Part shown: positions 38,369 through 64,000 of the stretch, in pieces
Numbering within the stretch: the stretch's first letter is position 1
Layout: each line of letters starts with the position of its first letter
Assembly (NCBI GenBank): GCA_002070105.1
Contig: MWCQ01000005.1
Location: 62,001 to 126,000 of the forward strand
DNA length: 64,000 nt
Direction of reading: 5' to 3'
Origin: Firmicutes bacterium ADurb.Bin193
GTDB lineage: Bacteria; Bacillota; Clostridia; Monoglobales; Firm-18
Translations under genes and position numbers: made by a program
The notes under the pieces: generated by a model
The model's input: the letters and a program-made list of their open reading frames with translations, nothing else
Databases searched by the model: none
Told to the model about the DNA's origin: nothing

Positions 38369-40840
38369 ATGGACAAGGTCACCTTAAAAAGATTTACTCA
38401 AAAAACAAGAAGGGCAATAACAGACCGCCTGTCCCATGTATGCGGTGAAAACCTTGAAAGCAACGCATATATAATTTTCGCCCGAATGATAACCTCGCTT
38501 TGCCTTAATGCCAATGGCTTTACGGATTCGGGGCGTTTTGCGTTTGAAATTCCCGAAGACCTTAAAGCGGCGTATGACGAGATATATGCGGATATAAAGC
38601 CTGTTTTGGCGGAAACGGACCGAAGCGTTTTCAAAAACCCCGAGGTTATCGGAAGGCTTTATCAAAGTTTTATTTCCGACCTTAAGGATGATGCCTTTGC
38701 CCTTTTGCAAAAAAACATCAAGATTACCAAGGAAACCCTTCCGGCCGCAACGCAGATTTTCACACCCGGGTGGATAGCAAAATACCTTGTAAACAAGGCA
38801 CTTTGCGAGATAAAAGATAAGCGCGCTCTTGAGCAAATAAAGCTTATCGACCCTTGCATGGGCTGCGGAAATATTTTATTATATGCCTTTGACGAGTTTA
38901 TGGGGCTTTACAGGGAGCGGGGTGAAGCCGAAGGCAATGCAGCAAGGCTGATTCTTGAAAAAAACCTTTGGGGGCTTGACATTGATGAAGCGGTTTGCGC
39001 CCTTGCCCGATTTTCGCTTTTTGTTAAGGCGGCGCAGTATGACCCCGCAATTTTAAGCGAAGAAATCAACACAAATCTTTTGTGCATACAAGAGGATGAC
39101 GGTATTTTTGCCGATGCAAAGCAGTTCGGAAGCCTTGTGAAAATCAAAGAAACATCAAAAGAGCACCCGCTATATAATCAGGCGGCCGTACTGTCGCAAA
39201 AGTATGATGCCGTCGTGACAAATCCGCCCTACATGGGGCGAAAAAGCCTCAACCCAAAGCTTCGGGAATTTATCGCACAAAACTATCCGGAGGGAAAATC
39301 GGAGCTTTATGCCGCATTTATCATGTCCTGTATAGAGATGCTTGCGGAGGGCGGGGTGTGCGCAATGATTACCCTTCACACATGGCTTTTTATAAGCTCG
39401 TTTTACGGTTTGCGAAGGTATGTTTTGGACAATACCTCAATTATATCAATGCTTCATACGGGCGCCGCAACCTTTGAGGAGCTTAACGCCTTTAACGCCC
39501 TTGCCGTGGCGTTTTGTCTAAAAAAAGGCAAGGACAGCCGAAAGTCGGAATTTATAAGGCTTTCCCAATACTACAACGCAAAGGAAAAAATTAAAAACAT
39601 AGATAACCTTGAAAACAGATTTCTTCTTTGTCAAAGTGATTTTGACAAACTTCAAAAGAGCCCTTTTATCTACTGGATTTCCGACAAGGTCAGGGATACA
39701 TTCGCGAAAAATAAGCCGCTTTCCTCCTTCGCAAGCCTGCGACAGGGGCTTGCGACGGGCGACAACAAGCGTTTTGTACGCTATTGGCATGAGGTAAATA
39801 AAGAGGATATTGCTTTTTCGTGCGGCTCGATTTCGGAGTTTCACAAAACGGGCAAAAAATATGCCCCCTACAACAAGGGCGGGGGCTTCAGAAAGTGGTA
39901 CGGCGCAAACAATATCGTTATTGCATTTGACAGCGAAAGCTATGAAACCCTGTTAAGGCAGGGTAATCACCTTCCGTCAAGAGAGTTTTATTTTCGTGAG
40001 GGAATAACATGGTCGCTTTTCGGGTTTGAAAATTTCAGCGTACGCTTTAAGCCCCGGGGCTTTGTGTTTGATGTGTCGGGCTCGTCGATGTTCCCCGAAG
40101 CGGAAAATCAAAAATATATTCTTGCGTTTCTGGCAAGCAAGGTGTCTTTTTTCTTCCTTCGCACCATAGCGCCCACGGTGAATTTTCAGGTAGGGAACAT
40201 TGCAAGCCTTCCGCTTATTATTGACAACAGAGAAAAAGAGAAAATCGAAGCGCTTGCGGATGAAAATATTGCGATTTCAAAGTCGGACTGGGACAGCTTT
40301 GAAGAATCCTGGGATTTTTCAAAACATCCCCTCGCACAAAGAGGGCTTTTATCCGAAAACTTTGAGCAATGGCGCAAAGAAGCGCAAAAAAGATATGATA
40401 CTCTTGTTAAAAATGAGGAGGAGCTTAACCGTATATTTATAAAAATTTACGGCCTTGAAGAAGAAATGTCCCCAGATGTTTCGGCAAGGGACATTACAAT
40501 ACGCAGGGCGGACCTAAAGCGAGACATAAAATCATTTATATCATACAGCATAGGCTGTATGTTCGGGCGGTTTAAGGATGGAGGACGGGGCTTTATACGA
40601 AAGGACGAGTTTTTTGATTTGTTTGTCCGCTTTATCGAAAGCGAATTGGGTTATACCGATAAAAACCTTGATTTTATCGCAAAGGCGCTCGGTTCCGGCA
40701 AGCCGCGGGATGTCTTGGATAATTATTTTAATCGGAATTTTTATGCCGACCACCTTAAAACTTATAAAAACCGCCCGATTTATATTTGCGAAGAGGACGG
40801 ATTTAGATACATACATGCAAAAAAACAGGAAGGCTTATAA
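38369..40840 (+). CDS. PglX-like class I adenine-specific DNA methyltransferase (orphan)
   Basis: An 823-residue N6-adenine methyltransferase resembling BREX PglX. SAM-binding motif I is 'DPCMGCGNILLYAFDEF' and the catalytic motif IV is 'VVTNPPYMGRKS'; 'QIFTPGWIAKYLVNKAL' precedes motif I as in PglX and type IIG enzymes. The part after about 430 is the target-recognition region. PglX is usually about 1,150-1,200 residues; the ending 'KTYKNRPIYICEEDGFRYIHAKKQ' corresponds to a PglX segment followed by a further C-terminal part, so this one is short. No pglZ, brxA/B/C/L or nuclease is present, so it is likely a solitary methylase. A palindromic repeat lies just after it. Confidence 0.85.
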   Translation: MDKVTLKRFTQKTRRAITDRLSHVCGENLESNAYIIFARMITSLCLNANGFTDSGRFAFEIPEDLKAAYDEIYADIKPVLAETDRSVFKNPEVIGRLYQSFISDLKDDAFALLQKNIKITKETLPAATQIFTPGWIAKYLVNKALCEIKDKRALEQIKLIDPCMGCGNILLYAFDEFMGLYRERGEAEGNAARLILEKNLWGLDIDEAVCALARFSLFVKAAQYDPAILSEEINTNLLCIQEDDGIFADAKQFGSLVKIKETSKEHPLYNQAAVLSQKYDAVVTNPPYMGRKSLNPKLREFIAQNYPEGKSELYAAFIMSCIEMLAEGGVCAMITLHTWLFISSFYGLRRYVLDNTSIISMLHTGAATFEELNAFNALAVAFCLKKGKDSRKSEFIRLSQYYNAKEKIKNIDNLENRFLLCQSDFDKLQKSPFIYWISDKVRDTFAKNKPLSSFASLRQGLATGDNKRFVRYWHEVNKEDIAFSCGSISEFHKTGKKYAPYNKGGGFRKWYGANNIVIAFDSESYETLLRQGNHLPSREFYFREGITWSLFGFENFSVRFKPRGFVFDVSGSSMFPEAENQKYILAFLASKVSFFFLRTIAPTVNFQVGNIASLPLIIDNREKEKIEALADENIAISKSDWDSFEESWDFSKHPLAQRGLLSENFEQWRKEAQKRYDTLVKNEEELNRIFIKIYGLEEEMSPDVSARDITIRRADLKRDIKSFISYSIGCMFGRFKDGGRGFIRKDEFFDLFVRFIESELGYTDKNLDFIAKALGSGKPRDVLDNYFNRNFYADHLKTYKNRPIYICEEDGFRYIHAKKQEGL

Positions 40841-43873: not shown

Positions 43874-45547
43874 TCAATGGTTTAATAAGGATGACTTTTG
43901 AAACTTTTTAACACCCTTTTTGAATGCTTCAAGGGTTTGCGGCGTTTCGTCAAGCCAGTAGGGGCGCGAAACGGTTTTTACCTTATCCGTGTAAACCTCA
44001 TAATCCGCATAGCTAAACCACACCGCAGCCTTTATCTGCGGATATCTGTGCAAATTTTCAAACATATTTTCTATCCATTTAGCCTTGTCGCCTCCGACAG
44101 AGCTTGACGAAAACTCGGTAATGATCCACGGGAATTTTTCAAAAGCGGGAAGACAGTTTTTTTGGATGGCATCGTAAATATCCTTAAATTCCCGCCACTT
44201 CTCATCCTTGTAATAGGTTCCGTTGTTATAGCCGGTAATTCCGAAAACCTGAACAAACTCATTTCCGGGATAAAAGGCGGTGCAGTCATTCCAGGCGCAG
44301 GGAGGATAGCTTCTGTCGTTGGGATTGAAAACCCAGATTGCGTTATTTACGCCCTCTTCCTCGAAAATACGATAAAATCTTTGCCAGTTGGCAATGTATA
44401 TTTCGGGGTCGCTCATGTTCACAACACCCGAATAACTTGTCCAGTCCGAGTTCGGCTCATTGTTCAGCCTGAAAAGGAACGGGTGCGAAAACGCCTTTGC
44501 AGACCTTGCGAATTTTCTGATTTCATCGTCCATTTTCCTCCTGTATATATCAAGAAACGGTGTGTAACCGAAAAGGTTTTCGTTGTTTGATGAGGTTGTC
44601 TGATAGGTAAGCTCCACAAGCCTGTTGTCGCTATGGTTTTTCTCCATGAAGCTTGTCGGAAATTCGCTTCCGAAATGCAGGTATGACAAAATTATGGGGA
44701 ATTTAAAGTCAAGCTTTTGTTCAAGCGCGGGAACGGTTTTGTCTATGCCCTTGTTATATATATCCTCCGAAAATATGCCCCAGTAAACCCCGTCATTCGC
44801 ACATAGCTTGTCATATACGCTTTTTGTTTGAGCTGACCAGTTAGGCGGGATAACGGGCGCAAAGTCTGTCTTTTTGTCAATGCTCCCGTGCGGTGAAAAG
44901 TATTTAAGCGAATTTATAACCTCATACGCCTGTTTTTCGAACTCTTCGTCGCCGGAGCTGTATTTGAACATAAGGCGGTAGAAATTTCGGGTTTTTGTTT
45001 GGTATATCGCATAAATGTACGCATCACGGATTATATCGCCGGGCTCGTTTATAACCGCCGAAATAATTTCGAGGTCTTTTTTGGGGTTTTCCTTTGTCAC
45101 CGAAATATTGTTCTTTTGTTGATACTCCGGGCTTAAAATAAATCTATTCAGATAGTGCGAGATATATTCATCGACATTTTCTTCAAAGGACCATTCCCTT
45201 GATACGGTAATCTGTCCCTTGTCGGACTCTGCCTGCATATAGGGGGTTAACACCGTAAGCTTGAAATCGTCGGGAAGGTCGAAGTAATAGCCCTCGGCAT
45301 AGTTTATGATACGGTTTTTGTCCTCGGCATGATATATTTTTGCCCCGCCCAAATCTGTTTCGCCCGAAATTGAAGCCAAGCCCTTCTTTTCGTTTCTAAG
45401 GAGCGGAAGCGTGGTTTTTATGATTATACGCTTTGCAATATTCTTTGCGGAGCGCATTGCAGCACTGTCCGAGCGGTAAAGGGCATACACCGGCAACAAT
45501 GTAGCCGCAAGTAAGAATATTATTAAGTGAGGCGTGTACCTTTTCAT
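43874..45547 (-). CDS. Glycoside hydrolase family 26-like protein
   Basis: A 557-residue protein with an N-terminal signal anchor (about 8-25). Residues 30-230 are an unassigned domain. Residues about 240-540 look like the GH-A clan barrel of GH26 (beta-mannanase family): acid/base Glu in 'LFRLNNEPNSDW', 'WVFNPND' with the aromatic platform, 'FYPGNEFVQVFGITGYN', and nucleophile Glu in 'WIITEFSSS'. Probably attached to the outside of the membrane, acting on beta-mannan or another glycan. Adjacent to, and same strand as, the NAGPA protein (87-base gap), so they may serve cell-wall or capsule turnover together. Confidence 0.8.
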   Translation of the reverse strand: MKRYTPHLIIFLLAATLLPVYALYRSDSAAMRSAKNIAKRIIIKTTLPLLRNEKKGLASISGETDLGGAKIYHAEDKNRIINYAEGYYFDLPDDFKLTVLTPYMQAESDKGQITVSREWSFEENVDEYISHYLNRFILSPEYQQKNNISVTKENPKKDLEIISAVINEPGDIIRDAYIYAIYQTKTRNFYRLMFKYSSGDEEFEKQAYEVINSLKYFSPHGSIDKKTDFAPVIPPNWSAQTKSVYDKLCANDGVYWGIFSEDIYNKGIDKTVPALEQKLDFKFPIILSYLHFGSEFPTSFMEKNHSDNRLVELTYQTTSSNNENLFGYTPFLDIYRRKMDDEIRKFARSAKAFSHPFLFRLNNEPNSDWTSYSGVVNMSDPEIYIANWQRFYRIFEEEGVNNAIWVFNPNDRSYPPCAWNDCTAFYPGNEFVQVFGITGYNNGTYYKDEKWREFKDIYDAIQKNCLPAFEKFPWIITEFSSSSVGGDKAKWIENMFENLHRYPQIKAAVWFSYADYEVYTDKVKTVSRPYWLDETPQTLEAFKKGVKKFQKSSLLNH

Positions 45548-46720: not shown

Positions 46721-46822
46721 AAATGCAAACATGGTAATAAAACCTAATCGGTTTTATACCTATGCATTTATTGAATCGGTGTAAAGCAAGCCGATTTCAG
46801 GCTTGCGCCTATGATTCAATAT
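46715..46822 (+). ncRNA. Structured leader element, copy 2 (upstream of secreted protein)
   Basis: Starts at TATAAT. Hairpin 1: AATAAATGCA (46718-46727) / TGCATTTATT (46763-46772) around GGTAATAAAACC / GGTTTTATACC. Hairpin 2: GAATC (46773-46777) / GATTC (46813-46817) around GCAAGCC (46786-46792) / GGCTTGC (46800-46806), then GCCTATG. The start codon of the next gene is about 50 bases further on. Confidence 0.7.
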
Positions 46823-46871
46823 GGACTGTGAATATATATTCACAAATACATTATGTGAGGAGAGTGTAAAA

Positions 46872-48998
46872 ATGAAAAGGTTCACATTATCGGTAATGGT
46901 GCTAATGGCATTTCTCTGCGTTGTTTTGTTAAGTCCTTTTGCACCATCGGAATCGACACCGCTTGTCTCGGCGGCAGCAACATGGAAACCCTTTCCCGGG
47001 CGCCTTGCTTACAGCTGTGACGGAGGCTATCACGATAAAGACGATATTGCTGCTAACCCTTTTCTTCTGTTGCTTCTTTACAAAGCCGGTTTAGCAGACA
47101 AGCTGGTTCACTTCGAGTATGCAAATCACATCTGGCTTTCAGACGCTACACAACTTAATAGTCTTATATCCGCAACAAATGAAGCGGTAACCAGATTTGG
47201 TTTTAACCCGAATATATTCTACAACTGCATGAATGCGAACAAAGACCCCATTTATAACCATCTTAGGGATGAAATTCTTGCTTCTACCGCATCAAATCCT
47301 CTGACCATCTGCGGTGCGGGACCGATGCATACAATCTATCAGGCGCTCTCGCGAGCTAATGCTCAAGACCCGAGCAAGCTTCAGTATGTGACGGTTATTT
47401 CACATTCGCCCAAAACAGGTGATTTGAGCAGTAACAATGAGCACGGCTTGTATGACCATGCTAAGGCGCCCGACCCCACCCATACACATAAAAATCCGAC
47501 GGCTAAGGTATGGGATGATATCGCTGCTGATTTCCCCTCTGTAAAGCTTGTTATCATTCGCGGTCAGAACGGCCCCGGCACTACCGCTCTCGAAAGAAAT
47601 GCTCCTTATGATTTTCGTGTGGCAGATTCTTACAATGCAGAACAATGGATGGAAGATTCCACCGATGACGATATTCGTTGGGTATGGGAAAATATGAATG
47701 CTGTCCACGGCACTTTAAACGATGTGTCCGATGCGGGTATGGTATGGTATTGGATGACCGGCGGCGATGCGTATGGCGATTTCGTTAAGACGAAGGTTGC
47801 ATTAACAAGCGATTATATTCTTGATCTTAATTTTAATTCAGATACCTTATCAAGTCCGCCTTCAGGCTGGGTGGATATTACCGGCGATGTGACGATTGCC
47901 AATGTGCCGAGTGTGTCGTATGTTCCTGCCGTTCCGGATAAGGCAATGGAGAATACTCATTTTAAGGACAAGTGCATAAAGATAAATGACACGACCTCAA
48001 GCAGTTGCACCGCGACTAAAGTATTTGCGGATCAGTCTGCGGATTTTGTGGTGGACTATGATTTTATGGTTTCAACTGCTTCGGCGGATTATGTTGGTAT
48101 AGAAGTTAAAAACAGCACAGGAGATGCTGCGGTAATGGTAAAAACCGTTGGAAGCAATATAAGTTATAAAACCGGCGGATCATGGACACCCATTACAAGT
48201 TACACGCAAAACAAATGGCATCACATCACAATATATGCCAACAAAGGAACAAACAAATGCAGTATAATAGTTGACGGTAAGTTGGAAGTGGATAATTTGG
48301 ATATGGCGACTGTATCTAATCCAATAAACAATATAACATTCAAAACAGGCACTACTTATCAAGGCGTTGCATATTTTGATAATCTTAAAATATTCTCACC
48401 TTCCGCCGCACCAACCCCTACTCCGACACCCTCACCAACCCCAACACCGGCAGGCGACTATCTCATAGATGATAACTTCAATAACCAATCAGCAGGGAGT
48501 ACGCCGACAGGCTGGACGGTTAGCGGAGATGTGAAGGTTGCGAACATTCCGAGTGCTTCTGATAAAAGTATAAAGTTTAACGATACTGATGCAAGCACCT
48601 TAACAGCAGTTAAGGGTTTTGCACAGCAGACGGGCGCAATCACGGTTGAATACGACTTTATGGTGCCTGCAACGGTAGATTTTGCGGGGTTACAGCTTGA
48701 GGACGGAAGCGGGACGACAGCTATAGTACTAAAGACCAGGTACGGACAAATCGCCTATAAAAAATCAGACGATAGTTGGGCTAACCTTCAGGCATACAAT
48801 CCAAACACATGGTATAGCATCAGGATAGAAGCTGATGTCTCAACCGATACATACAGCGTCTATGTAAACGGCGTAGAGAGGGCGAACGGTGTAGCTTTTA
48901 ACAGAGCCGTATCGTCTATAGAGCAGATAAAATTCACAACAGGCAGTTCCTATACCGGTCTAATGTATGTGGACAATGTAAAGGTTTATAAGCCGTAA
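46872..48998 (+). CDS. Large secreted protein: nucleoside-hydrolase-like domain plus two LamG-like domains
   Basis: A 708-residue exported protein. ATG 46872 follows GAGGAGAG; signal peptide about 1-32. Residues about 38-300 resemble the nucleoside-hydrolase fold: 'YSCDGGYHDKDDIAANPF' recalls the D-x-D-x(3)-DD calcium site, although the first Asp is replaced by Cys-Asp order and the family match is weak. Then two LamG/CBM-like beta domains (about 310-515 and 545-708, each ending 'YFDNLKIF' or 'YVDNVKVY') joined by a Thr-Pro linker 'PTPTPTPSPTPTP'. Function unknown; likely binds or acts on a glycan or nucleoside-containing polymer outside the cell. It is bracketed by 79-bp direct repeats. Confidence 0.7.
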   Translation: MKRFTLSVMVLMAFLCVVLLSPFAPSESTPLVSAAATWKPFPGRLAYSCDGGYHDKDDIAANPFLLLLLYKAGLADKLVHFEYANHIWLSDATQLNSLISATNEAVTRFGFNPNIFYNCMNANKDPIYNHLRDEILASTASNPLTICGAGPMHTIYQALSRANAQDPSKLQYVTVISHSPKTGDLSSNNEHGLYDHAKAPDPTHTHKNPTAKVWDDIAADFPSVKLVIIRGQNGPGTTALERNAPYDFRVADSYNAEQWMEDSTDDDIRWVWENMNAVHGTLNDVSDAGMVWYWMTGGDAYGDFVKTKVALTSDYILDLNFNSDTLSSPPSGWVDITGDVTIANVPSVSYVPAVPDKAMENTHFKDKCIKINDTTSSSCTATKVFADQSADFVVDYDFMVSTASADYVGIEVKNSTGDAAVMVKTVGSNISYKTGGSWTPITSYTQNKWHHITIYANKGTNKCSIIVDGKLEVDNLDMATVSNPINNITFKTGTTYQGVAYFDNLKIFSPSAAPTPTPTPSPTPTPAGDYLIDDNFNNQSAGSTPTGWTVSGDVKVANIPSASDKSIKFNDTDASTLTAVKGFAQQTGAITVEYDFMVPATVDFAGLQLEDGSGTTAIVLKTRYGQIAYKKSDDSWANLQAYNPNTWYSIRIEADVSTDTYSVYVNGVERANGVAFNRAVSSIEQIKFTTGSSYTGLMYVDNVKVYKP

Positions 48999-55718: not shown

Positions 55719-56537
55719 TTAAGGCTGATGTATTATCTCAAGCTGACGCATATATTTTTCCGCTTTTAAGGTTAAGGCATTGACATCACCCGAAAAAATA
55801 GTCGGATTTTTGCCCAGCGCATTGCTTTTAGAAATCCCGAATTCATCATATGGGATAAGCCGAACTTTAACGGGGTTTTTGAGCGACATAAGATATGCCG
55901 CCATTTTTTCAAACTCTGTATCATCATGCACACCGGGGATAATAGGTATGGAAATCCAAAGCCTCTCAGGGATTTTTTCGTTAAGGTAAGCAATGTTTTC
56001 TTTTATTATCGTGTTGTCAACGCCGGTAAACTCTTTATGCTTCTCCGATGTAAAAAGCTTAAAGTCGGCGATTACAAGGTCGGCAGTATCCGCCAATTCC
56101 GCAACAACATCCAAAGGGGCAAAGCAAGAGGTTTCCACAGCGGTATGAATATTTTGATTTTTCAGGCGTAAAAGCAATTCCTTTACCGATGCCCACTGGG
56201 AAAGCGGTTCGCCGCCGCTTACAGTTACGCCCCCGCCGTTTTCGTAGTATATTTCATCCTTCATAACTTCCTGAATAATATCGTCAATTTTGGCATCATA
56301 ACCGACGCTCACCCTTGCGCCCGAAGGACATTCCGAAAGAATCTCCGATTTACCGAGGCAGACTTCACAGCCTATACACAGCTCTTTGAAAAACATCGTT
56401 TGCGTAGCGGGGCTTATTGATTCGGGATTATGACACCATGCACAATCAAGAGGACAGCCCTTTACAAATACAGTCGTACGAATTCCCGGACCGTCATGGA
56501 TACAAAATTTTTGTATATCGAATATTCTCAGCTTCAC
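55719..56537 (-). CDS. Glycyl-radical enzyme activating protein (radical SAM)
   Basis: A 272-residue activase that uses S-adenosylmethionine and a [4Fe-4S] cluster to form the glycyl radical on the neighbouring enzyme. The radical-SAM motif is in 'KGCPLDCAWCHNPES'; 'CIGCEVCLGKSEILSECP' is an auxiliary cluster region, and 'VTVSGGEPLSQW' is the SAM-binding GGE motif. I prefer the GTG at 56537 (AGGGGA 7 bases upstream, giving the usual start 'KLRIFDIQKFCIHDGPGIRTT'); an ATG at 56552 overlaps the enzyme's stop but has no ribosome site. Co-transcribed with the enzyme. Confidence 0.92.
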   Translation of the reverse strand: MKLRIFDIQKFCIHDGPGIRTTVFVKGCPLDCAWCHNPESISPATQTMFFKELCIGCEVCLGKSEILSECPSGARVSVGYDAKIDDIIQEVMKDEIYYENGGGVTVSGGEPLSQWASVKELLLRLKNQNIHTAVETSCFAPLDVVAELADTADLVIADFKLFTSEKHKEFTGVDNTIIKENIAYLNEKIPERLWISIPIIPGVHDDTEFEKMAAYLMSLKNPVKVRLIPYDEFGISKSNALGKNPTIFSGDVNALTLKAEKYMRQLEIIHQP

Positions 56538-56548
56538 GATTGTTCCCC

Positions 56549-58837
56549 TCACATTGACGCTTTTTTTGATGATGAACGAATTCGGGCAATAACACTTTCC
56601 TGAACTTCCTTTGACAGGGTTACAAAGCGGGCGCTAAGCCCAAACAGCCTAACCATTAAGTGTCCGTATTTTGAAGGATTGTCCATCGCATCCCGCAGTG
56701 TTTCTTCGTTTAGGAAATTAAGCCCCAGCTCTGCTCCTCCCTTTTTGAAGAAGCCCCTTATGACAGTTGTCAGTCTTTCAAGCCCTTCCTCACCATCAAA
56801 TAGCGAGGGGTCAAATTCCAGCACATTACTCACGCCGCCCGGGAAATCTGTAAAATCTATCGCACAAGCCGAATTAAGCAGTTGCGTGATGGTGCCTCTT
56901 TCGCCTAATGCAGAAGGTTGAAGCGTACCCGAAGTTATCGGGTCATCATACTTCCTTCCGCAGGGCGATGCACCAATATTATTGTTGCCTTTACTATTAT
57001 TGTAGTCCATGCTAAACAGCATAGGCCAGTAATTGTCACCGTAATAAGGAGTGCGGGAAGCAAGACAGGATGCAAAAAATGCGGTTTCACTTTTTGTAAT
57101 GGAATCAACCTCGGGATTATCCTGCCCAAAGCGGGGAAGCTTGTTTATAACATACTGCCTTAGCGCCTCTTGATTTTCCCAGTTATTTTTTAATATATCA
57201 ATAAATTCAGATAATCCGAGTTTTTTATCCTCATATACCAGTTTTTTTATTGCATACAGTGAATTTGTTATATCCGCAACCGAGCCCATCGGCTTCGCAA
57301 CCGCATTATATTTCGGAAGCCCCGCCGTAATATCAACGCCTTTTTCGACACCCCCGTGTGTAAGCAATGTAAGCCAGGGTCGGGGAAGAAAGAGGGGTTC
57401 AATTCTCTCGTCCTCCTCGGATACCGCAAGCGCACAGTCAATCACATACTGTATTTTCTTATGGTATACCTTCATCAGAGATTCAAAAGAATCAAAGCCT
57501 TCGGGAATATCATCAAACAGCTTATCCCCTGTAACCATGCAAATTCCCTTGTTGAGCACAAGCTCCAATACCTTCAGCGGTTTAAGCCCAAGCCCCATTG
57601 TTCTGAAATTTGTCCGACCGGGTATCATAACCTCCACACAACCCAGAGGCGCATAATCCCTTGCATCCTCAATGCTGACACCCTTGTTGGTAAGCGCGAG
57701 AATCATAATATCATCGTTGAATAAATCAGGCCGCCCGAATCCCTTCCTGACAACTTTTGCAACAGAACTCAAAAACTCAGCCGGAGTATTTTTATGTATT
57801 CTGACAGACATATCTACGGTTGCTTCTGTCAAAGCCATAGCTTCTAGGAGCATATATGAAAGCTCGTTTGTTCCATCGGTTCCGTCACTTTTTAATCCGC
57901 CTATTGTCATATTGCAGGATGACTGTGGCTTCCAGTTTTTTATAACAAAGTGGCAAACAATATCCATTGCCTCATCCTTAGTTAAAAAGCCACTTTCAAT
58001 ATCATTTTTCATGTAGGGGTAAAGATACTGATCCAATCTTCCGAAAGAGCACGCATCACCCCTTGAATCCAGCTGATCCATAAGGTGACTTAAATAGAGC
58101 AGTTGCAAGGCTTGAAGAAAATTTTCGGGCGCATGCCTTTTAATATGTGCCATATTTTGTGCGCCGTTCAGAAGCCGGTTTTTAATGGTTATATCCTCTG
58201 TTTCTTCTGCTTTGTTTTTTAATGCGACCGAATAACGATTACAGTAATCCGCCAAGGCCTCAAGCAGTCTTTTTATTGCCGTCCATTCATTTTTCTTATC
58301 CGGGTCATTTTCCCTTTTAATATTATGCGCAAGCTGTGATACAAGCTTATCAATGCCGTTATCTAAAAGTATCTTGTGGTCAGGAAGCGTATGTCCTACA
58401 ATAAAGCCGTTTGTAAGATTGGCAATGTTATATTTATATATCCATGAATAATTGTCCTTGATTTTATTTTTAATTTTTATGTTTCTGCCCTTCCAGTAAT
58501 TAATTTCTTCATAAACATCCTCGGGATAAACGCAATTTTCGTTATATCCTTGAACCTCTGGGAAAGCGGCGTTTAATTTCCACAGAGCATCGGGGGACAC
58601 ACCGTTATGAACGGGATATTGCCTGAATACCGGGCCATGAATCCATTCCTCTTCCAGAATAACTGTATCTGTATTTTGCAAGGCTCTTATAACAACCTCC
58701 GCCCTTTTTAAGACGGCGGGAAGGTCGGGGAAATTTTTATAAACCATTGTGGCTTGCTTACCACGAACGGAAGGATCAAAATCATCCTCCATTGCAGATG
58801 CCCGTTTTTTAAAATTCCGTGTATACTCATTCAACAT
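56549..58837 (-). CDS. Glycyl radical enzyme (PFL/dehydratase superfamily), substrate unknown
   Basis: A 762-residue glycyl radical enzyme. The active-site thiyl Cys400 lies in 'DYAPLGCVEVMIPG' and Glu402 follows it, the pattern of C-C/C-O/C-N eliminating enzymes (dehydratases, choline lyase) and not the adjacent Cys pair of pyruvate formate-lyase. Gly733 in 'VRLFGLSARF' is the radical site. The residues after Glu (V-M-I-P instead of P) do not fit choline, glycerol, hydroxyproline, isethionate or 1,2-propanediol enzymes that I know. First 250 residues hold the PFL-like domain. Start ATG with AGAGGGA. First in an operon with its activase and divergent from corrinoid methyltransferase genes. 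Confidence 0.9.
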   Translation of the reverse strand: MLNEYTRNFKKRASAMEDDFDPSVRGKQATMVYKNFPDLPAVLKRAEVVIRALQNTDTVILEEEWIHGPVFRQYPVHNGVSPDALWKLNAAFPEVQGYNENCVYPEDVYEEINYWKGRNIKIKNKIKDNYSWIYKYNIANLTNGFIVGHTLPDHKILLDNGIDKLVSQLAHNIKRENDPDKKNEWTAIKRLLEALADYCNRYSVALKNKAEETEDITIKNRLLNGAQNMAHIKRHAPENFLQALQLLYLSHLMDQLDSRGDACSFGRLDQYLYPYMKNDIESGFLTKDEAMDIVCHFVIKNWKPQSSCNMTIGGLKSDGTDGTNELSYMLLEAMALTEATVDMSVRIHKNTPAEFLSSVAKVVRKGFGRPDLFNDDIMILALTNKGVSIEDARDYAPLGCVEVMIPGRTNFRTMGLGLKPLKVLELVLNKGICMVTGDKLFDDIPEGFDSFESLMKVYHKKIQYVIDCALAVSEEDERIEPLFLPRPWLTLLTHGGVEKGVDITAGLPKYNAVAKPMGSVADITNSLYAIKKLVYEDKKLGLSEFIDILKNNWENQEALRQYVINKLPRFGQDNPEVDSITKSETAFFASCLASRTPYYGDNYWPMLFSMDYNNSKGNNNIGASPCGRKYDDPITSGTLQPSALGERGTITQLLNSACAIDFTDFPGGVSNVLEFDPSLFDGEEGLERLTTVIRGFFKKGGAELGLNFLNEETLRDAMDNPSKYGHLMVRLFGLSARFVTLSKEVQESVIARIRSSSKKASM

Positions 58838-58860
58838 AATATTATCCCTCTAACCTGTTA

Positions 58861-59613
58861 TTATTGGGCTATAGCCTTCCCGACCTTTAAAACCTCGTTG
58901 TCATATGAAGGTTCAACACAGAAGCCGGGGGGAACAACAATAAAATCCTTTTCGTCCCATTTGCCGTTTAGCATGTTATGAAGCAGGGAAGAGTCACCCT
59001 CCAAATAGTCATAATTCCACTTCATAAAGTGGGCGCACTCCTTGGTATAGTCAATACACTCCTGCGACTGAAGCTCTTTCCAGTTAACATATGTACAATA
59101 AGAGTATTTTGTCATCCAGTCCTGTTCGGTCTGTATTAAATAATCCGCATTTTCCTCACCGTATTTTTCGGTATATTCTCTGTAAATATTGTCATAACGC
59201 TCCTTTGAAGGCATGAGCGTATTTTCGATCCAGCCCGGCGTATACCAATAGATTCCGCCGCTGTGGGCGTCAAAGTATTCCCTGTATCTTTCCTTGCTGC
59301 CCAGAATAAGAGTGATACAGTCATGCGCCTTCGGAATTACAATCGTATGTCTTTTTGACGAAATCCCCGCCGTACCGTTGCTGCAAAGTCCGTAGCCGAT
59401 AACAATAGCATCAAAAGGCTTGCTGTTACAGCTGTGTATATCGCTTCCGCAGTCAATCTTATCAATCTCGTCCTGCAATATTTTGCGAAATTTGTCGGGC
59501 TCATCGTGAAAGCCCTGCCTGATGTATGTTATATCTATAAAATTAGGGCATTCGGCGCTTAAAAGCGAAAGCTCACGCTGCAACACCTTACATGCAATCA
59601 GTTTAAGGTTCAT
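58861..59613 (-). CDS. DUF1638 protein
   Basis: A 250-residue protein of the DUF1638 family, whose start 'LKLIACKVLQRELSLL' and 'DAIVIGYGLCSNGTAGI' (about residues 65-81) and 'KAHDCITLILGSKERY' are typical. From memory, these occur beside corrinoid methyltransferases of methanogens and acetogens, as they do here; function not known, possibly a metal-binding or corrinoid accessory protein (several Cys, His). ATG 59613 has AAGGGG 7 bases upstream. The gene is 23 bases before the glycyl radical enzyme, in one transcript, and divergent from the reductive activator gene. Confidence 0.85.
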   Translation of the reverse strand: MNLKLIACKVLQRELSLLSAECPNFIDITYIRQGFHDEPDKFRKILQDEIDKIDCGSDIHSCNSKPFDAIVIGYGLCSNGTAGISSKRHTIVIPKAHDCITLILGSKERYREYFDAHSGGIYWYTPGWIENTLMPSKERYDNIYREYTEKYGEENADYLIQTEQDWMTKYSYCTYVNWKELQSQECIDYTKECAHFMKWNYDYLEGDSSLLHNMLNGKWDEKDFIVVPPGFCVEPSYDNEVLKVGKAIAQ

Positions 59614-59663
59614 CAAACCACCCCTTACTTTATATTAAACTACAAAAAACATAAAAATACAAC

Positions 59664-59692
59664 TGTTTTTTTCTTGTTTTGTATGGTATAAT
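59664..59692 (+). promoter_or_regulatory. Promoter of the corrinoid gene set
   Basis: TATAAT (59687-59692) preceded by GG; a weak TGTTTT at 59664-59669 is the best -35 (17-base spacer). The 105-base space between divergent genes must also hold the opposite promoter and any regulator site. Confidence 0.4.
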
Positions 59693-59718
59693 TTAAGGAT
59701 GAGAGGAGTGGGGACGGC

Positions 59719-61110
59719 ATGAGGACGATTAATATTGGCGGAAAGAAAATTATATGCGATGATGGGGAAAACCTTTACAAAGCCCTGCTTCGCGGAGGCA
59801 TAAATTTTAACGCGTCATGCGGAGGTGTCGGAACCTGCGGAAAATGCTATGTTGATATAGACGGCGTGGGAAGGGTTAAAGCCTGCCAATACTCCGTTAA
59901 AGAGGATATTGCATTAAGCCTGTCGGTGCAAAAAATCGAGGCCTTGACAAAGGGAATGCTTCGTGATGTAAAGGCCGACAACAAAGCCGCATGTATAGCT
60001 GCGGACATTGGTACGACAACCGTTGTCGCATATCTTATAAAAGACGGTAAGATAAAGGATGCAATAAGCTCGGTAAATTCACAAAAACCCTACGGCGACG
60101 ATGTAATAACGCGTATAAAATACACAATCGACAATGAGGACGGGACGGACAGGCTTCACAGCCTTATTAAAAATCAGATTAAACAAATGGTATCGGAGCT
60201 TTCTGAGCGAAACGGGGCTTTGGTAAGCGACATGGCGATTGTCGGCAATACGACAATGCTTCATCTGTTTGCCGGTGTGTCGCCCGCGTCAATGGGCGTT
60301 GCTCCCTACACTCCCAAATTTACCGAACTTAAAAAAATCGGTAATGCAACCTTGTTGCCCTCCCTTTCCGCTTATGTGGGCGCAGACACGGTTGCGGCGA
60401 TTTTAGCGTCAGGTATGCACCTTTCGGACAAAAAATGCCTATTAATAGACATTGGCACAAACGGCGAAATCGCACTGGGTAATCGTGACAAAATCATAAC
60501 CTGTTCTGCGGCGGCGGGTCCCGCATTTGAGGGGGCGCAGATAAGCTGCGGCACGGGCGGCGTTGCGGGCGCGATTGACAGCGTTAAAATAAACGGAGGA
60601 ATAACCTATACAACAATAGGAGGTCTTCCTCCCGTCGGAATCTGCGGAAGCGGTATTCTTGACACCGTGGCGCAAATGCTGAAAGCGGGGCATATTGACA
60701 GCAGCGGGTATTTTGAGGACGAGATCCTATACATAGCCGACGGGGTCAGCATAACGGCAAACGACATAAGGCAGGTACAGCTTGCGAAGGCGGCGATTGC
60801 GGCGGGGATCGGGACGCTTGTTGAGCTTTCAAAAACGGATTTGTCCGAAATCGAAGTCTGCTATCTTGCGGGCGGGTTCGGAAGCTTTTTGAACAAACAA
60901 AGCGCATGCGACATAGGTCTGATTCCGAAGGAGCTTTTGGACAGGGTTGTTCCGATAGGCAATGCGGCCGGGATGGGCGCCGTACTGTGGAGTGTTTCCG
61001 ACGAATGTAAAAAAGAGGTTCAAGGGATTACGGACAAAGCCGAATACTTCGAGCTTTCCGAAAGCAGTATTTTCAACCGTTTGTTTATTGAAAATATGGC
61101 TTTTGAATAA
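59719..61110 (+). CDS. Reductive activator of corrinoid proteins (ASKHA ATPase with 2Fe-2S domain)
   Basis: A 463-residue protein that uses ATP to drive reduction of inactive Co(II) corrinoid to Co(I). Residues 1-75 are a plant-type ferredoxin domain with Cys34, Cys40, Cys43 and Cys56 in 'SCGGVGTCGKC' and 'KACQYS'. Residues about 92-463 are the ASKHA-fold ATPase: 'AADIGTTTVVAYL', 'IVGNTTMLHLFAGVSP', 'LLIDIGTNGEIAL' and 'CYLAGGFGSFLNK', as in RamA/AcsV-like proteins. It is shorter than the usual 600 residues, lacking the linker domain. ATG with GAGTGGGG. Confidence 0.9.
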   Translation: MRTINIGGKKIICDDGENLYKALLRGGINFNASCGGVGTCGKCYVDIDGVGRVKACQYSVKEDIALSLSVQKIEALTKGMLRDVKADNKAACIAADIGTTTVVAYLIKDGKIKDAISSVNSQKPYGDDVITRIKYTIDNEDGTDRLHSLIKNQIKQMVSELSERNGALVSDMAIVGNTTMLHLFAGVSPASMGVAPYTPKFTELKKIGNATLLPSLSAYVGADTVAAILASGMHLSDKKCLLIDIGTNGEIALGNRDKIITCSAAAGPAFEGAQISCGTGGVAGAIDSVKINGGITYTTIGGLPPVGICGSGILDTVAQMLKAGHIDSSGYFEDEILYIADGVSITANDIRQVQLAKAAIAAGIGTLVELSKTDLSEIEVCYLAGGFGSFLNKQSACDIGLIPKELLDRVVPIGNAAGMGAVLWSVSDECKKEVQGITDKAEYFELSESSIFNRLFIENMAFE

Positions 61111-61187
61111 AAAAATACAATAAATATTAAAAATGTTCAATAAACTTTTTGTTTAAGGTGTTATTATATATAAAGCGGTGATTTTTA

Positions 61188-62447
61188 TTGGAAGATAATC
61201 GTGATAATTTAAGGCTTATGCAGACAATTGAGCGGCAGCTTAAACAGTTCTCGGTCGCGACCGGAGTTAACTGCGTATGCGTACCGAGGGATGACGAGGG
61301 TTTTAACTATGAGGAAGGCTGTAAAATCTGCAAAACCATAAATGAAATAACGCAAAAAAAGGTTGACTGTAAAAAGGCGATAACCTACGGTGCATATCAG
61401 GCGGAACGCTTCGGCGGGAAATATATCTTTTATTGTCCCATGGGGCTTACATACTTTGCATCGCCCGTTTTTTCTGAGGGGAGCGTTTTTGCCGTGGCGG
61501 TTGGCGGGCCTGTTTTGCTTGTCGACAAGAACGAATATGTTTCAGAGGACATAATAAGCAGACTTGGCATAGAGGATTGCTATGAGCACAGAATAAAAAA
61601 GGATATCAGGAATGTCCCCAGGGTATCACCCGAAAGGGTAACCGCAATGTCGCAGACATTGTTTTGCGTATGTTCGTTTATAAGCGGTACAAAGCAGCTT
61701 CAGTATTTAACCGACGAAGAAACGATCGGCAACGACATGGCGAAATATATAAATTTTATCAGCACCATGGGCGGAAAGCCGTATGAAAGCTCATACCCCA
61801 TTCAAAAAGAGCGGGAGCTTTTGTCGCTTATATCCGTCGGTGACAGAGAAAAAGCGCAGGAAATTTTAGATGACATATTAAAGCACATTATCGAATACTC
61901 AAACCTTGATTTTGAAAATGCCAAGGCGCGTATTTTAGAGCTTGCGGTTTTGCTGTCAAGGGCGGCGCTTGAAGGCGGGGCGGATTTGGAGCAAATTTTC
62001 GGTATAAACTATAAATTCTTAAACCGTATAAACCAATTTAAGACGGTTGCCGAGCTTTCGCACTGGCTTTCGGATATAATGGTGCGCTTTACCGACTGTG
62101 TGTTTAACATAGTAAATATAAAGCACATGGATACGATTTATAAGGCGGTTGACTATATAAAGCGCAACTATTCAAGGAAAATCACGCTTGAGGAGGTTGC
62201 GGGTCATGTGTTTTTAAGCCCGTCGTATTTTTCCAAGGTTTTTAAAGAGGAGCTTAAAATAAGCTTTAACAACTATTTGAACCAGATAAGGATAGAAAAC
62301 AGCAAAAGGCTTCTTTTAAACGACAATATTGATATGATTAAAGTATCCGAGATGTCCGGCTTTGAGGAACAAAGCTATTATATAAAGGTTTTTAAAAAAA
62401 TTACAGGCGTAACTCCCGGTCAATACCGGCGAAGGTATGGAAAATAA
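61188..62447 (+). CDS. PocR-domain AraC-type transcription regulator
   Basis: A 419-residue regulator. Residues about 20-180 match the PocR sensory domain with the Cys cluster ('EEGCKICKTI', 'KKVDCKKAI', 'YIFYCPMGLTYFASPVF'); PocR of Salmonella senses 1,2-propanediol, and relatives near corrinoid methyltransferase genes are thought to sense methanol or methoxy compounds. Residues about 318-417 are the AraC DNA-binding domain ('ITLEEVAGHVFLSPSYFSKVFK', 'VSEMSGFEEQSYYIKVFKKI'). TTG start with AAGCGGTGA. Likely controls the whole cluster, including the divergent glycyl radical operon, in response to its substrate. Confidence 0.9.
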   Translation: MEDNRDNLRLMQTIERQLKQFSVATGVNCVCVPRDDEGFNYEEGCKICKTINEITQKKVDCKKAITYGAYQAERFGGKYIFYCPMGLTYFASPVFSEGSVFAVAVGGPVLLVDKNEYVSEDIISRLGIEDCYEHRIKKDIRNVPRVSPERVTAMSQTLFCVCSFISGTKQLQYLTDEETIGNDMAKYINFISTMGGKPYESSYPIQKERELLSLISVGDREKAQEILDDILKHIIEYSNLDFENAKARILELAVLLSRAALEGGADLEQIFGINYKFLNRINQFKTVAELSHWLSDIMVRFTDCVFNIVNIKHMDTIYKAVDYIKRNYSRKITLEEVAGHVFLSPSYFSKVFKEELKISFNNYLNQIRIENSKRLLLNDNIDMIKVSEMSGFEEQSYYIKVFKKITGVTPGQYRRRYGK

Positions 62448-62463
62448 TTTAGGAGGTAAATAA

Positions 62464-63096
62464 ATGAGCATTTTAAGTGAAATTTCGGAAAATCTGCAAA
62501 AGGGTAGAGCAAAGAATGTTAAAGAATTGGTCGCCCGGGCGATCGAAGAGAAATACACCGCAAAAGAGATACTTGAAGAAGGTCTGCTTGCGGGTATGAG
62601 CATTATCGGCGAAAAGTTTAAGAATAATGAGGTTTTTGTACCTGAGGTTTTGATAGCCGCGCGCGCCATGAATGCTGGTTCCGAAATTCTTAAGCCTCTG
62701 CTTGCGGAGGACGGTGTTGAGGCTGTGGGTAAGGTTGTGCTTGGCACGGTAAAGGGCGACCTTCACGACATCGGCAAAAACCTTGTAAGAATGATGATGG
62801 AGGGAAAGGGCCTTGAGGTTATAGACCTTGGCGTTGATGTTTCCGCAGAGAAGTTTGTCGAAACGGCGATTGCCGAAAAGGCACAGATTATTGCTTGCTC
62901 GGCGCTTTTAACAACCACGATGGGCGAAATCAAAACGGTTGTAGAAGCTGTTGAAAAAGCGGGAATCCGCGACAAAGTAACAATTATGATTGGCGGCGCA
63001 CCCGTTACGCAGTCTTTTTGCGAAAGCGTTAAAGCCGACATATATACACCGGATGCGGCTACTGCGGCGGAGGCTGCCGTTGCGGCAATTAATTAG
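62464..63096 (+). CDS. Corrinoid (B12-binding) methyl-carrier protein
   Basis: A 210-residue MtaC/MtbC-type protein. Residues 1-85 are the helical cap domain ('AKEILEEGLLAGMSIIGEKF', 'VFVPEVLIAARAMNAG'); residues about 90-210 are the Rossmann-like B12 domain with His101 in 'GDLHDIGKNLV' as lower axial cobalt ligand, and 'IIACSALLTTTMGEIKTVV', 'MIGGAPVTQSFCESV'. It carries methyl groups between two methyltransferases. It starts 16 bases after the regulator, with TAGGAGG. The MtaB/MttB-type substrate methyltransferase is not in the window. Confidence 0.95.
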   Translation: MSILSEISENLQKGRAKNVKELVARAIEEKYTAKEILEEGLLAGMSIIGEKFKNNEVFVPEVLIAARAMNAGSEILKPLLAEDGVEAVGKVVLGTVKGDLHDIGKNLVRMMMEGKGLEVIDLGVDVSAEKFVETAIAEKAQIIACSALLTTTMGEIKTVVEAVEKAGIRDKVTIMIGGAPVTQSFCESVKADIYTPDAATAAEAAVAAIN

Positions 63097-63112
63097 GAAT
63101 GGAGCTTAAAAC

Positions 63113-64000
63113 TTGAATATTCTAAAATGGATTGACGAAATAATAAACGCTACCGTTAAAAAGCCCATGCCTGTATTGTCCTTTCCGGGCGCAAGGCTTT
63201 TGGAAATTACGGTTCTTGAAATGATTAAAAGTGCCGACAATCAGGCAAGGTGCATGAAGGCTGTTGCCGATAGGTTTGATACTTTAGCCTCCGTAAGCCT
63301 TATGGATTTGTCCGTTGAGGCGGAGGCTTTCGGAAGCGAGGTAAAATTCGGCGAAAATGATGTTCCCACTGTTATCGGCTCAATTGTTGATACAAAAGAG
63401 GATGCGGAAAATCTGAAAATTCCGCGCGTAGGCGAGGGACGAACGGGCGTTTGCATAGAGGCTATAAAAAAAGCAAAGGCTTTAATCACCGACCGACCTG
63501 TTTTTGCGGGGGTTATAGGGCCCTTTTCCCTTTCGGGAAGGCTTATGGACATGACGGAAATTATGGTTAAAAGCCTGACAGAGCCTGAACTGACCCATGT
63601 AGTGCTTTCAAAGGCGACCGAATTTATAACCCGATACGCACTTTCGCTAAAGGCGGCGGGCGCCGACGGACTTATTATCGCAGAGCCTGCGGCGGGACTG
63701 CTTTCGCCTGCGATATGCAAGGAGTTTTCAAGCGGTTATGTTAAAAAAATAGTCGATGCGGTTTCGGACTACAGCTTTATTGTCATTTACCACAACTGCG
63801 GGAATACCCTTCCTCTGATTGATTCAATATTAAGCATTGGTGCAAAGGCATATCACTTCGGAAATGCGGTTGACATAGAAGAAATTCTTAAAAAAATGCC
63901 TAGTGATGTTCCCGTTATGGGGAATTTAAGCCCGTCCGAGCATCTCCTCGGAGGCACTCCCGCAACCGTTGCAAAGGCGACAAAGCAAATGCTTAAAAAG
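63113..64000 (+). CDS. Uroporphyrinogen-decarboxylase-family methyltransferase (MtaA/CmuA-like), 3' end outside window
   Basis: Open frame to the window end; 296 codons visible. TTG start at 63113 with GGAATGGAG upstream. UroD-fold proteins in this context move the methyl group from the corrinoid protein to coenzyme M, tetrahydrofolate or another acceptor. 'YHNCGNTLPLI' (H-x-C) holds two of the zinc ligands, as in MtaA, and 'GVIGPFSLSGRLM', 'SLKAAGADGLIIAEPAAGLLSP' (in part) are family hallmarks. The family also includes substrate-side methyltransferases such as the CmuA type, so direction of transfer cannot be told. Direct successor of the corrinoid protein. Confidence 0.9.
   Translation, partial: MNILKWIDEIINATVKKPMPVLSFPGARLLEITVLEMIKSADNQARCMKAVADRFDTLASVSLMDLSVEAEAFGSEVKFGENDVPTVIGSIVDTKEDAENLKIPRVGEGRTGVCIEAIKKAKALITDRPVFAGVIGPFSLSGRLMDMTEIMVKSLTEPELTHVVLSKATEFITRYALSLKAAGADGLIIAEPAAGLLSPAICKEFSSGYVKKIVDAVSDYSFIVIYHNCGNTLPLIDSILSIGAKAYHFGNAVDIEEILKKMPSDVPVMGNLSPSEHLLGGTPATVAKATKQMLKK

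Follow-up and report, generated by a model that had tools for sequence, protein, structure and literature searches.

A corrinoid methyltransfer module, a candidate part of a split methionine synthase, beside a glycyl radical enzyme of no characterised class in Firmicutes bacterium ADurb.Bin193

The window (the whole 64,000-nucleotide stretch of contig MWCQ01000005.1 that was analysed) ends on its right in two divergent gene sets. We consider it somewhat probable that these are two systems sharing one divergent promoter region: a corrinoid shuttle that serves a split methionine synthase (MetH), and a glycyl radical enzyme (GRE) that acts as a polyol-type lyase. The evidence comes from gene content and active-site motifs, and from a comparison with related loci, where GRE and corrinoid genes are found apart.

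Layout of the locus

The features are as follows:

55719..56552, minus strand: radical-SAM GRE-activating enzyme (activase); PF04055, and TIGR02494 above its cut-off
56549..58837, minus strand: GRE, uncharacterised eliminase subfamily; PF02901 and PF01228, subfamily alignment, tree and model
58861..59616, minus strand: DUF1638 protein, putative corrinoid-methyltransfer accessory; PF07796
59617..59718, no strand: divergent intergenic region, 102 nt
59719..61110, plus strand: short RACo/RamA-type corrinoid reductive activator with 2Fe-2S and ASKHA domains; PF14574, PF17651 and PF13510
61188..62447, plus strand: PocR-AraC transcription regulator; PF10114 and PF12833
62464..63096, plus strand: corrinoid protein with B12 cap and B12-binding domains, MtgC/MtbC-like; profile matches
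63113..64000, plus strand, running 114 nt beyond the window: MtaA/MtbA-like URO-D methyltransferase; profile matches and a His227-Cys229-Cys309 zinc motif

An earlier, sequence-only reading of this DNA had given the same genes, reading frames, orientations and families, and all of these were borne out in the sequence and by profile matches (E-values of 1e-123 for PFL-like and 5e-18 for Gly_radical in the GRE, and 1e-38 for DUF1638). The divergent arrangement also stands; the two opposed start codons are separated by 102 nt and not by the 105 bases given there. To the right of the URO-D gene lie frames which, named by reading and not by search, are BioY-like, IMPDH-like and Dus-like, followed by V-ATPase-like frames. 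No MtaB- or MttB-type enzyme, for which the same reading had proposed to look beyond position 64,000, was seen among the frames read there. The MttB-type methyltransferase family PF06253 has no matches in the genome, and amine demethylation of the MttB type (MtgB/MtgC/MtgA) was rejected on this ground.

A gap of 23 nt separates the DUF1638 gene from the GRE gene downstream of it on the same strand, and the GRE and activase frames share 4 nt at the GRE stop. This spacing suggests that DUF1638, GRE and activase form one operon. We argue from spacing because a scan for promoters and terminators gave sites that were not in excess over shuffles; none of the terminator-like sites that it listed falls in the DUF1638-GRE gap. 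An extended -10-like word, TGGTATAAT, can be read on the plus strand at 59684-59692 in the divergent region, and is absent from the sites listed by the scan. The GRE is probably transcribed behind DUF1638, an arrangement that, as far as found, occurs in this genome only. A corrinoid accessory placed operon-like upstream of the GRE argues for a link between the two gene sets, and we count it against the two-system reading.

The corrinoid genes and a split methionine synthase

The genome has the gene content of a split methionine synthase: a stand-alone corrinoid protein, homocysteine and pterin domains in a separate protein, no complete MetH and no MetE, together with the partners expected of such an enzyme, a RamA-like activator and DUF1638. 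It is 99.8% complete, and its only PF02607 protein is the corrinoid protein of the module; MetE (PF01717) has no matches in it. On another contig there is a MetH half of 535 residues with the S-methyl_trans and Pterin_bind domains only. This is 58% identical to the MetH of a genome of the same family (G003), a 782-residue frame that is the sole PF02607 protein there, and it stops before the B12 part of that protein, the next gene following 36 nt on. PF02607 lies in a frame of at least 700 residues in 41 of the 43 genomes of the order that have this domain, the exceptions being G000 and G048. Elsewhere in the genome, a stand-alone methyl-THF:corrinoid methyltransferase (PRK07535) is followed by an MTHFR-like gene and then by ETF genes.

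In Phaeobacter inhibens the split methionine synthase needs both DUF1638 and a RamA-like protein, and DUF1638 is linked to B12 reactivation, according to the available text of PMC5764234. In Ruegeria pomeroyi, MtgC serves methionine synthesis as well as betaine demethylation, and metF2 lies behind mtgD, as given in the available part of PMC12478193; the order of the folate methyltransferase and the MTHFR-like gene in the present genome is like that one. The likeness to both species extends to the separate corrinoid protein, the homocysteine and pterin domains located elsewhere, and the RamA-like and DUF1638 partners. Unlike in these species, the homocysteine and pterin domains are fused (535 residues), there is a URO-D protein instead of MttB, and a GRE lies next door.

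The gene content therefore fits a role of the corrinoid genes in supplying the missing B12 part of the split methionine synthase. MetH has lost its B12 half, and the sole substitute found is this corrinoid protein of catabolic type, together with DUF1638 and RACo, as a candidate; since the genome has no other such corrinoid protein, we infer that it also serves the split MetH. RACo and DUF1638 would bring the corrinoid protein to the Co(I) state, the corrinoid protein would double as the cobalamin subunit of methionine synthase, and the methyl-THF:corrinoid methyltransferase near the MTHFR-like and ETF genes would tie it to folate. If true, this would extend the dual-use corrinoid logic of the marine Roseobacter group to an anaerobic lineage, and would give DUF1638, a family without assigned function, a simple test. 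The module has a role besides methionine synthesis, to judge by genomes that have a similar module and keep a full-length MetH.

Against the methionine-synthase role stand the possibility that methionine is taken up and the case of G048, which likewise has a stand-alone corrinoid protein only.

The proposal that DUF1638 belongs with the corrinoid genes is supported, and no second DUF1638 match at E 1e-20 occurs in the genome. The RACo activator is 61% identical to that of G003, with which it pairs at 100/100 in the tree; the G003 gene has no adjoining corrinoid gene. Of 33 other loci, 19 have a PocR-AraC gene close to the corrinoid gene. Module proteins of other genomes resemble the corrinoid protein and the URO-D protein at up to 77% and 60% respectively. 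The nearest solved structure to the URO-D protein is MtaA. Its His-Cys-Cys zinc site is also present in all five URO-D relatives from such modules, and is lacking from the two other URO-D matches found in the genome with the window protein as query. This coordination sphere is described as a mark of S-methyltransferases in the available text of PMC10418091. The motif is thus pointing to methyl-sulfur or methyl-selenium chemistry, in which the URO-D protein would transfer a methyl group to or from the corrinoid, with a sulfur (or selenium) compound as the partner. It weakens a role in O-demethylation.

The combination of an MtaA-like His-Cys-Cys URO-D protein, a corrinoid protein and a reductive activase is like that of the mlp gene clusters described in a preprint by Kountz and Balskus. 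A type 1 mlp cluster has at least Mlp2 and Mlp3 as defined in the available text of PMC10418091, while there is one MtaA-like URO-D protein here. The halomethane and O-demethylase systems CdmBCA, MtvB and OdmB similarly unite a URO-D methyltransferase, a corrinoid protein and an activator. The present cluster differs from them in having no folate methyltransferase, in a URO-D protein nearest to MtaA, and in its S-methyltransferase-type zinc site.

The glycyl radical enzyme

The GRE has PFL-like and Gly_radical domains, and carries GCVE from residue 399, giving the thiyl Cys400 and, two residues on, Glu402, as the sequence-only reading had claimed; the radical Gly is in the loop R730-L-F-G733. 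With the adjoining radical-SAM activase (TIGR02494, 260.6 against a cut-off of 174.35), these features place it in the GRE superfamily, eliminase type. Its signature further comprises H149, D153, D261 and R412-T413-M414. It scores below all NCBIfam class cut-offs (best subfamily 394.8 against 678.2, best class 348.5 against 1100) and falls in a fully supported clade of its own, in agreement with the suggestion that it is an eliminase of no characterised class. HypD, CutC, HpfG/HpsG, PflD and the indoleacetate and HPA decarboxylases were rejected on these cut-offs and on low identity. A structure search with the predicted model (pLDDT 79) recovered the whole-length fold in glycerol dehydratase 1r8w, propanediol dehydratase 9rco, CutC 5fau and PflD/YbiW 8yjo/8id7 (Z 29.7-34.9, 698-717 residues aligned, 25-27% identity), and picks no class, the best rows being within 1-2 Z units of each other.

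Cys-x-Glu, the Gly-radical loop and the activase partner are shared with glycerol dehydratase, propanediol dehydratase, CutC and PflD; the conserved R-T-M and R-L-F-G motifs are the enzyme's own. His149 and Asp153 align with His164 and Asp168 of glycerol dehydratase, and PflD is alike, sharing GCVE..IPGR and GH...D at 25-27% identity. PflD/YbiW (8yjo/8id7) is presumably a 1,5-anhydroglucitol-6-phosphate lyase, the substrate being taken from PDB titles. Among the residues to which we assume active-site roles in glycerol dehydratase (His164, His281, Ser282 and Asp447, numbered by counting on the alignment), only His164 is kept, the others being Asp261, Ala262 and Met414 here, and this class was rejected. 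Choline TMA-lyase was also rejected: the GRE has GHTLPD, containing His149, where CutC has GGDT, whose Asp we take to bind ammonium. The analogy with choline lyase drawn by the sequence-only reading is weakened accordingly. Thr413, 13 residues after the Cys, presumably corresponds to Thr502 of CutC, numbered as in PDB titles. To judge by these residues, the active site looks polyol-like and not choline-like.

On the two-system reading, the GRE and activase would constitute a C-O lyase (C-S or C-N less likely) with a substrate that is probably hydroxylated and sugar-like. The Cys400 thiyl radical would abstract H from the OH-bearing carbon, Glu402 would accept the proton of that hydroxyl, and the neighbouring substituent would be eliminated.

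The enzyme represents a small, rare GRE subfamily that has a distinct active-site signature. It forms a clade (100/100 in the tree) with the only three close relatives found, from Poribacteria and Lentisphaerae (42-48% identity), and one intermediate. In its own order (51 genomes) and class (391 genomes) the best matches are 32% and 34% identical, and a single-protein scan of genome contigs gave no close relatives. A DNA-pattern scan with GCVE[LIVM][LIVM]IPG[RK-like] returned 15 stretches: three true relatives, seven other GREs (25-30%) and five without a GRE. Plasmids gave at best 28%, among 5 of 97 records listed, and viral contigs gave none. GH-like or sugar-isomerase-like genes lie near three of the four relatives; the relatives are few, and one locus (L088) ends about 500 nt past the activase. 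These genomes may be rich in GH genes anyway.

Relation between the two gene sets

The sequence-only reading envisaged a conserved pairing with recurring DUF1638-GRE-corrinoid synteny. This was not borne out: corrinoid genes lie beside none of the four GRE relatives, a GRE is present at none of the 33 corrinoid loci examined, and in 10 loci of DUF1638 relatives (matches from 53% identity down) none is beside a GRE, an outcome which that reading had itself named as counting against it. Neither a GRE paired with DUF1638 nor a GRE methylthio lyase was found in the literature searched. A new GRE-corrinoid pathway is thus unproven, and a radical enzyme adjoining methyltransferases is a caution against taking adjacency for a pathway. 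Given the operon-like set of DUF1638, GRE and activase, a functional link is nevertheless possible in this one genome, for example through a methylthio lyase feeding the corrinoid protein.

The model first proposed was that GRE cleavage releases a methylated product, and that the URO-D/corrinoid system then takes over its methyl group. The divergent adjacency speaks for it, as does the likelihood that DUF1638 and the GRE are transcribed together, and the folate methyltransferase elsewhere in the genome could complete the route. We regard it as improbable, given that the pairing was seen in one genome only, that His149 stands where CutC has Asp, that the frames read to the right include no MtaB, and that the genome lacks MttB. 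Very improbable, in our estimation, is the reverse order, in which a polyol or imino acid methylated at N, O or S (for instance an N-methyl-hydroxyproline) is demethylated and the GRE dehydrates the product. Methylated GRE substrates presumably exist, the solved GREs 8id1 and 8iof being, by their PDB titles, N-methyl-cis-4-hydroxyproline dehydratases; no paper on such an enzyme was found in the literature searched. These enzymes are only 23% identical to the GRE, the His-Cys-Cys site speaks against O-demethylation, and the genome lacks an MttB-type N-demethylase.

Anaerobic methionine salvage would join the two sets differently: a GRE C-S lyase would act on a methylthio-alcohol or -polyol, and the methanethiol released would pass its methyl group through URO-D and the corrinoid protein to the split MetH and homocysteine (or to folate). 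This scheme, which we think quite unlikely, is consistent with a zinc site of the sulfur type, with one corrinoid protein shared by both uses, with the lack of MetE and with the apparent GRE-DUF1638 operon; if true, it would provide a radical analogue of the MarHDK route.

Finally, the GRE and activase may have landed behind DUF1638 by recombination, as plain neighbours without regulatory or metabolic tie, which we judge unlikely on the whole. The GRE's relatives are in distant phyla, with none above 34% in the order and class genomes, and GC3 of the GRE and activase (0.415 and 0.432) is below that of DUF1638 and the corrinoid genes (0.46-0.52). Against this, the DUF1638 gap is very short and none of the listed terminator-like sites falls within it, GC3 is similar (0.427) in the gene that flanks the GRE and activase on the opposite side, and the codon usage of the two genes fits that of the surrounding genes.

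Gene organization at the locus

Profile searches of the window recovered every gene named in the sequence-only reading, in the order and on the strands given there:

55719–56552 (−), activase
56549–58837 (−), glycyl radical enzyme (GRE)
58861–59616 (−), DUF1638 protein
59719–61110 (+), RACo activator
61188–62447 (+), PocR-AraC regulator
62464–63096 (+), corrinoid protein
63113 onwards (+), URO-D protein, ending 114 nt past the window

The divergent DUF1638 and RACo genes are separated by 102 nt rather than the 105 first counted. The GRE starts 23 nt beyond the end of DUF1638 and overlaps the activase by 4 nt, so that the three genes are probably one transcript. Cys400 and Glu402 of the GRE were verified in the sequence; the radical loop is R730-L-F-G733. 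To the right of the URO-D gene, past the window, the frames (named by reading) are BioY-like, IMPDH-like, Dus-like and V-ATPase-like, and no further methyltransferase was seen among them. Elsewhere, the window encodes a GH26-like protein (43874–45547) and two large proteins: one has lectin- or sialidase-CBM-like domains (46821–48998), the other carries an NPPY motif and by reading resembles an orphan adenine DNA methylase (38369–40840).

Classification and active site of the GRE

The GRE lies outside the known classes, as had been suspected: the highest of its NCBIfam class scores, 348.5, falls short of the cut-off of 1100. Its identity to the best-ranked solved relatives in a structure search is 23–27%; about 60% was used to separate classes in one SSN study (PMC6453916). 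The AlphaFold2 model (mean pLDDT 79) aligns with whole solved GREs from many classes at similar scores (Z 34.9 for propanediol dehydratase, 34.7 for CutC, 33.3 for glycerol dehydratase, 33.2 for YbiW, and 33.1 and 32.3 for N-methyl-hydroxyproline dehydratases), and the predicted fold thus singles out no class.

Searches turned up no close relative in its own order (matches at E 1e-60 in 5 of 51 genomes including its own, best other 32%) or in a sample of the class (E 1e-90, 14 of 391 including its own, best other 34%). A motif pattern scan of a species-genome collection (84,980 species by its description) gave 15 stretches, three with true relatives, from Poribacteria (48% identity), Lentisphaerae RIFOXYA12 (45%) and another Lentisphaerae (42%); the scan needs the exact motif, and subfamily members with a different one escape it. 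G806 carries the relative at locus L089; among 288 genomes of its phylum, the only matches at E 1e-150 were in G806 itself and in G920, whose GRE (575 bits) is an intermediate. In a tree of 28 GREs from this analysis, with no solved reference among them, the window GRE and its three relatives form a clade (support 100/100), which the G920 GRE joins at 100/99. Invariant in these four are H149, D153, D261, APLGC400VE402VMIPGR408, R412-T413-M414 and MVRLFG. G806 alone, a Lentisphaerae genome of 10.6 Mb, yields 13 GRE matches at E 1e-40. A second uncharacterised group, with Y[YF]NMGCVE[IV]MIPG, occurs at L064, L066, L067, L072, L073 and L076; at L064 and L072 an alcohol-dehydrogenase-like gene directly follows the GRE.

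In alignments, His149 and Asp153 correspond to His164 and Asp168 of glycerol dehydratase, whereas its His281, Ser282 and Asp447 are replaced by Asp261, Ala262 and Met414; CutC differs in having Asp at the position of His149. Given the functional roles that we take the aligned glycerol dehydratase and CutC residues to have, we read the putative substrate as hydroxylated and sugar-like rather than a quaternary amine. The neighbours of the relatives are in keeping with this: next to the GRE at L093 is a GH5-like gene, and next to that at L089 a homologue of it (26% over 606 aa); near the L090 GRE lie a sugar-isomerase-like gene, a 2-hydroxyacid dehydrogenase and a weakly GH42-like gene, and L093 has another sugar-isomerase-like gene. 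This evidence is weak, because the relatives' genomes may be rich in such genes.

The corrinoid genes and a proposed split methionine synthase

The solved structure closest to the window URO-D is MtaA. In the window protein, His227, Cys229 and Cys309 occupy the positions of the zinc motif, which is kept in all five module URO-D relatives; the two further URO-D proteins detected in the window's genome lack His-Cys-Cys. According to an mlp-cluster preprint, His-Cys-Cys is the mark of S-methyltransferases, with carboxylates or non-ligands at those positions in O-methyltransferases (PMC10418091). Since the motif marks S-methyltransferases, a methyl-sulfur or methyl-selenium substrate is more likely than a methoxy one.

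The window corrinoid protein is the sole PF02607 match in its genome (99.8% complete). At the thresholds used, this genome gave a single match to each of RACo and DUF1638; PF06253 and PF01717 gave none. Of its two PF00809 matches, one is a stand-alone methyl-THF:corrinoid methyltransferase (PRK07535, 350.5 against 259), behind which come an MTHFR-like gene and then ETF-like genes. The other is a 535-aa protein of S-methyl_trans and Pterin_bind domains, that is, MetH without its B12 half (L119:8898–10505, contig C3), whose gene lies 5′ of a PBP1A-like gene and adjoins rplL-like genes; it is 58% identical to MetH of G003, from the same family, up to where the latter runs on into B12 domains. PF02607 is present in 43 of 51 genomes of the order and lies in a frame of at least 700 aa in 41 of these, the exceptions being this genome and G048. 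The sole PF02607 protein of G003 is a MetH-length frame, and in a tree the window RACo pairs with that of G003 (100/100).

The split methionine synthase of P. inhibens depends on corrinoid, RamA-like and DUF1638 proteins (PMC5764234), and the corrinoid protein of R. pomeroyi works in both methionine synthesis and betaine demethylation, metF2 lying 3′ of mtgD (PMC12478193). Compared with these, the window genes and the two other loci make up the same set, minus the methyl donor enzyme. The corrinoid half is best read as a methyl shuttle that, in addition, completes methionine synthase.

Recurrence of the pairing

The conserved GRE–corrinoid pairing proposed earlier did not recur at the loci examined. 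No corrinoid protein, RACo or DUF1638 lies near any of the four GRE relatives (the intermediate included), and none of 33 corrinoid loci, several of which end at contig ends, has a GRE. At L089 a URO-D gene of 21% identity lies about 4 kb from the GRE, and at L090 there is an AraC regulator with similarity confined to the HTH part. The 33 loci comprise L113, L114 and 31 from PF02607 matches in the order, a subset picked mostly for a short stand-alone frame. The corrinoid protein was picked up by frame calling in 30 of them; PocR is present in 19, RACo in 14, MtaA-like URO-D in five, DUF1638 in four, folate methyltransferase in three and MttB in one. L165 carries DUF1638 (55%) and RACo-PocR-corrinoid in the divergent arrangement of the window, minus the GRE, and at L175 PocR-corrinoid-URO-D follow the window's order. 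From these counts and gene orders, the corrinoid half is a recurring module of which the GRE is no regular part.

Our best reading is a new GRE subfamily, unrelated or only locally linked to the adjoining methyl shuttle. A link may exist, since DUF1638 and the GRE look co-transcribed; in that case, the sulfur-type zinc site of URO-D would suggest that the GRE releases methanethiol and not trimethylamine or methanol, a case we consider improbable.

Three corrinoid loci show further arrangements. At L179 (5747–7249), DUF1638 is immediately 5′ of a second corrinoid protein gene, with another corrinoid gene and URO-D within the same 7 kb. At L172 (9020–11874), a 406-aa protein with a homocysteine S-methyltransferase domain is encoded directly after RACo, with no gap between the two; a fused corrinoid protein and DUF2284 lie beside them. 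At L114 (2540–12018, genome G015), the same corrinoid/URO-D/RACo set has MttB and a BCCT transporter as neighbours, as would suit a betaine-type substrate.
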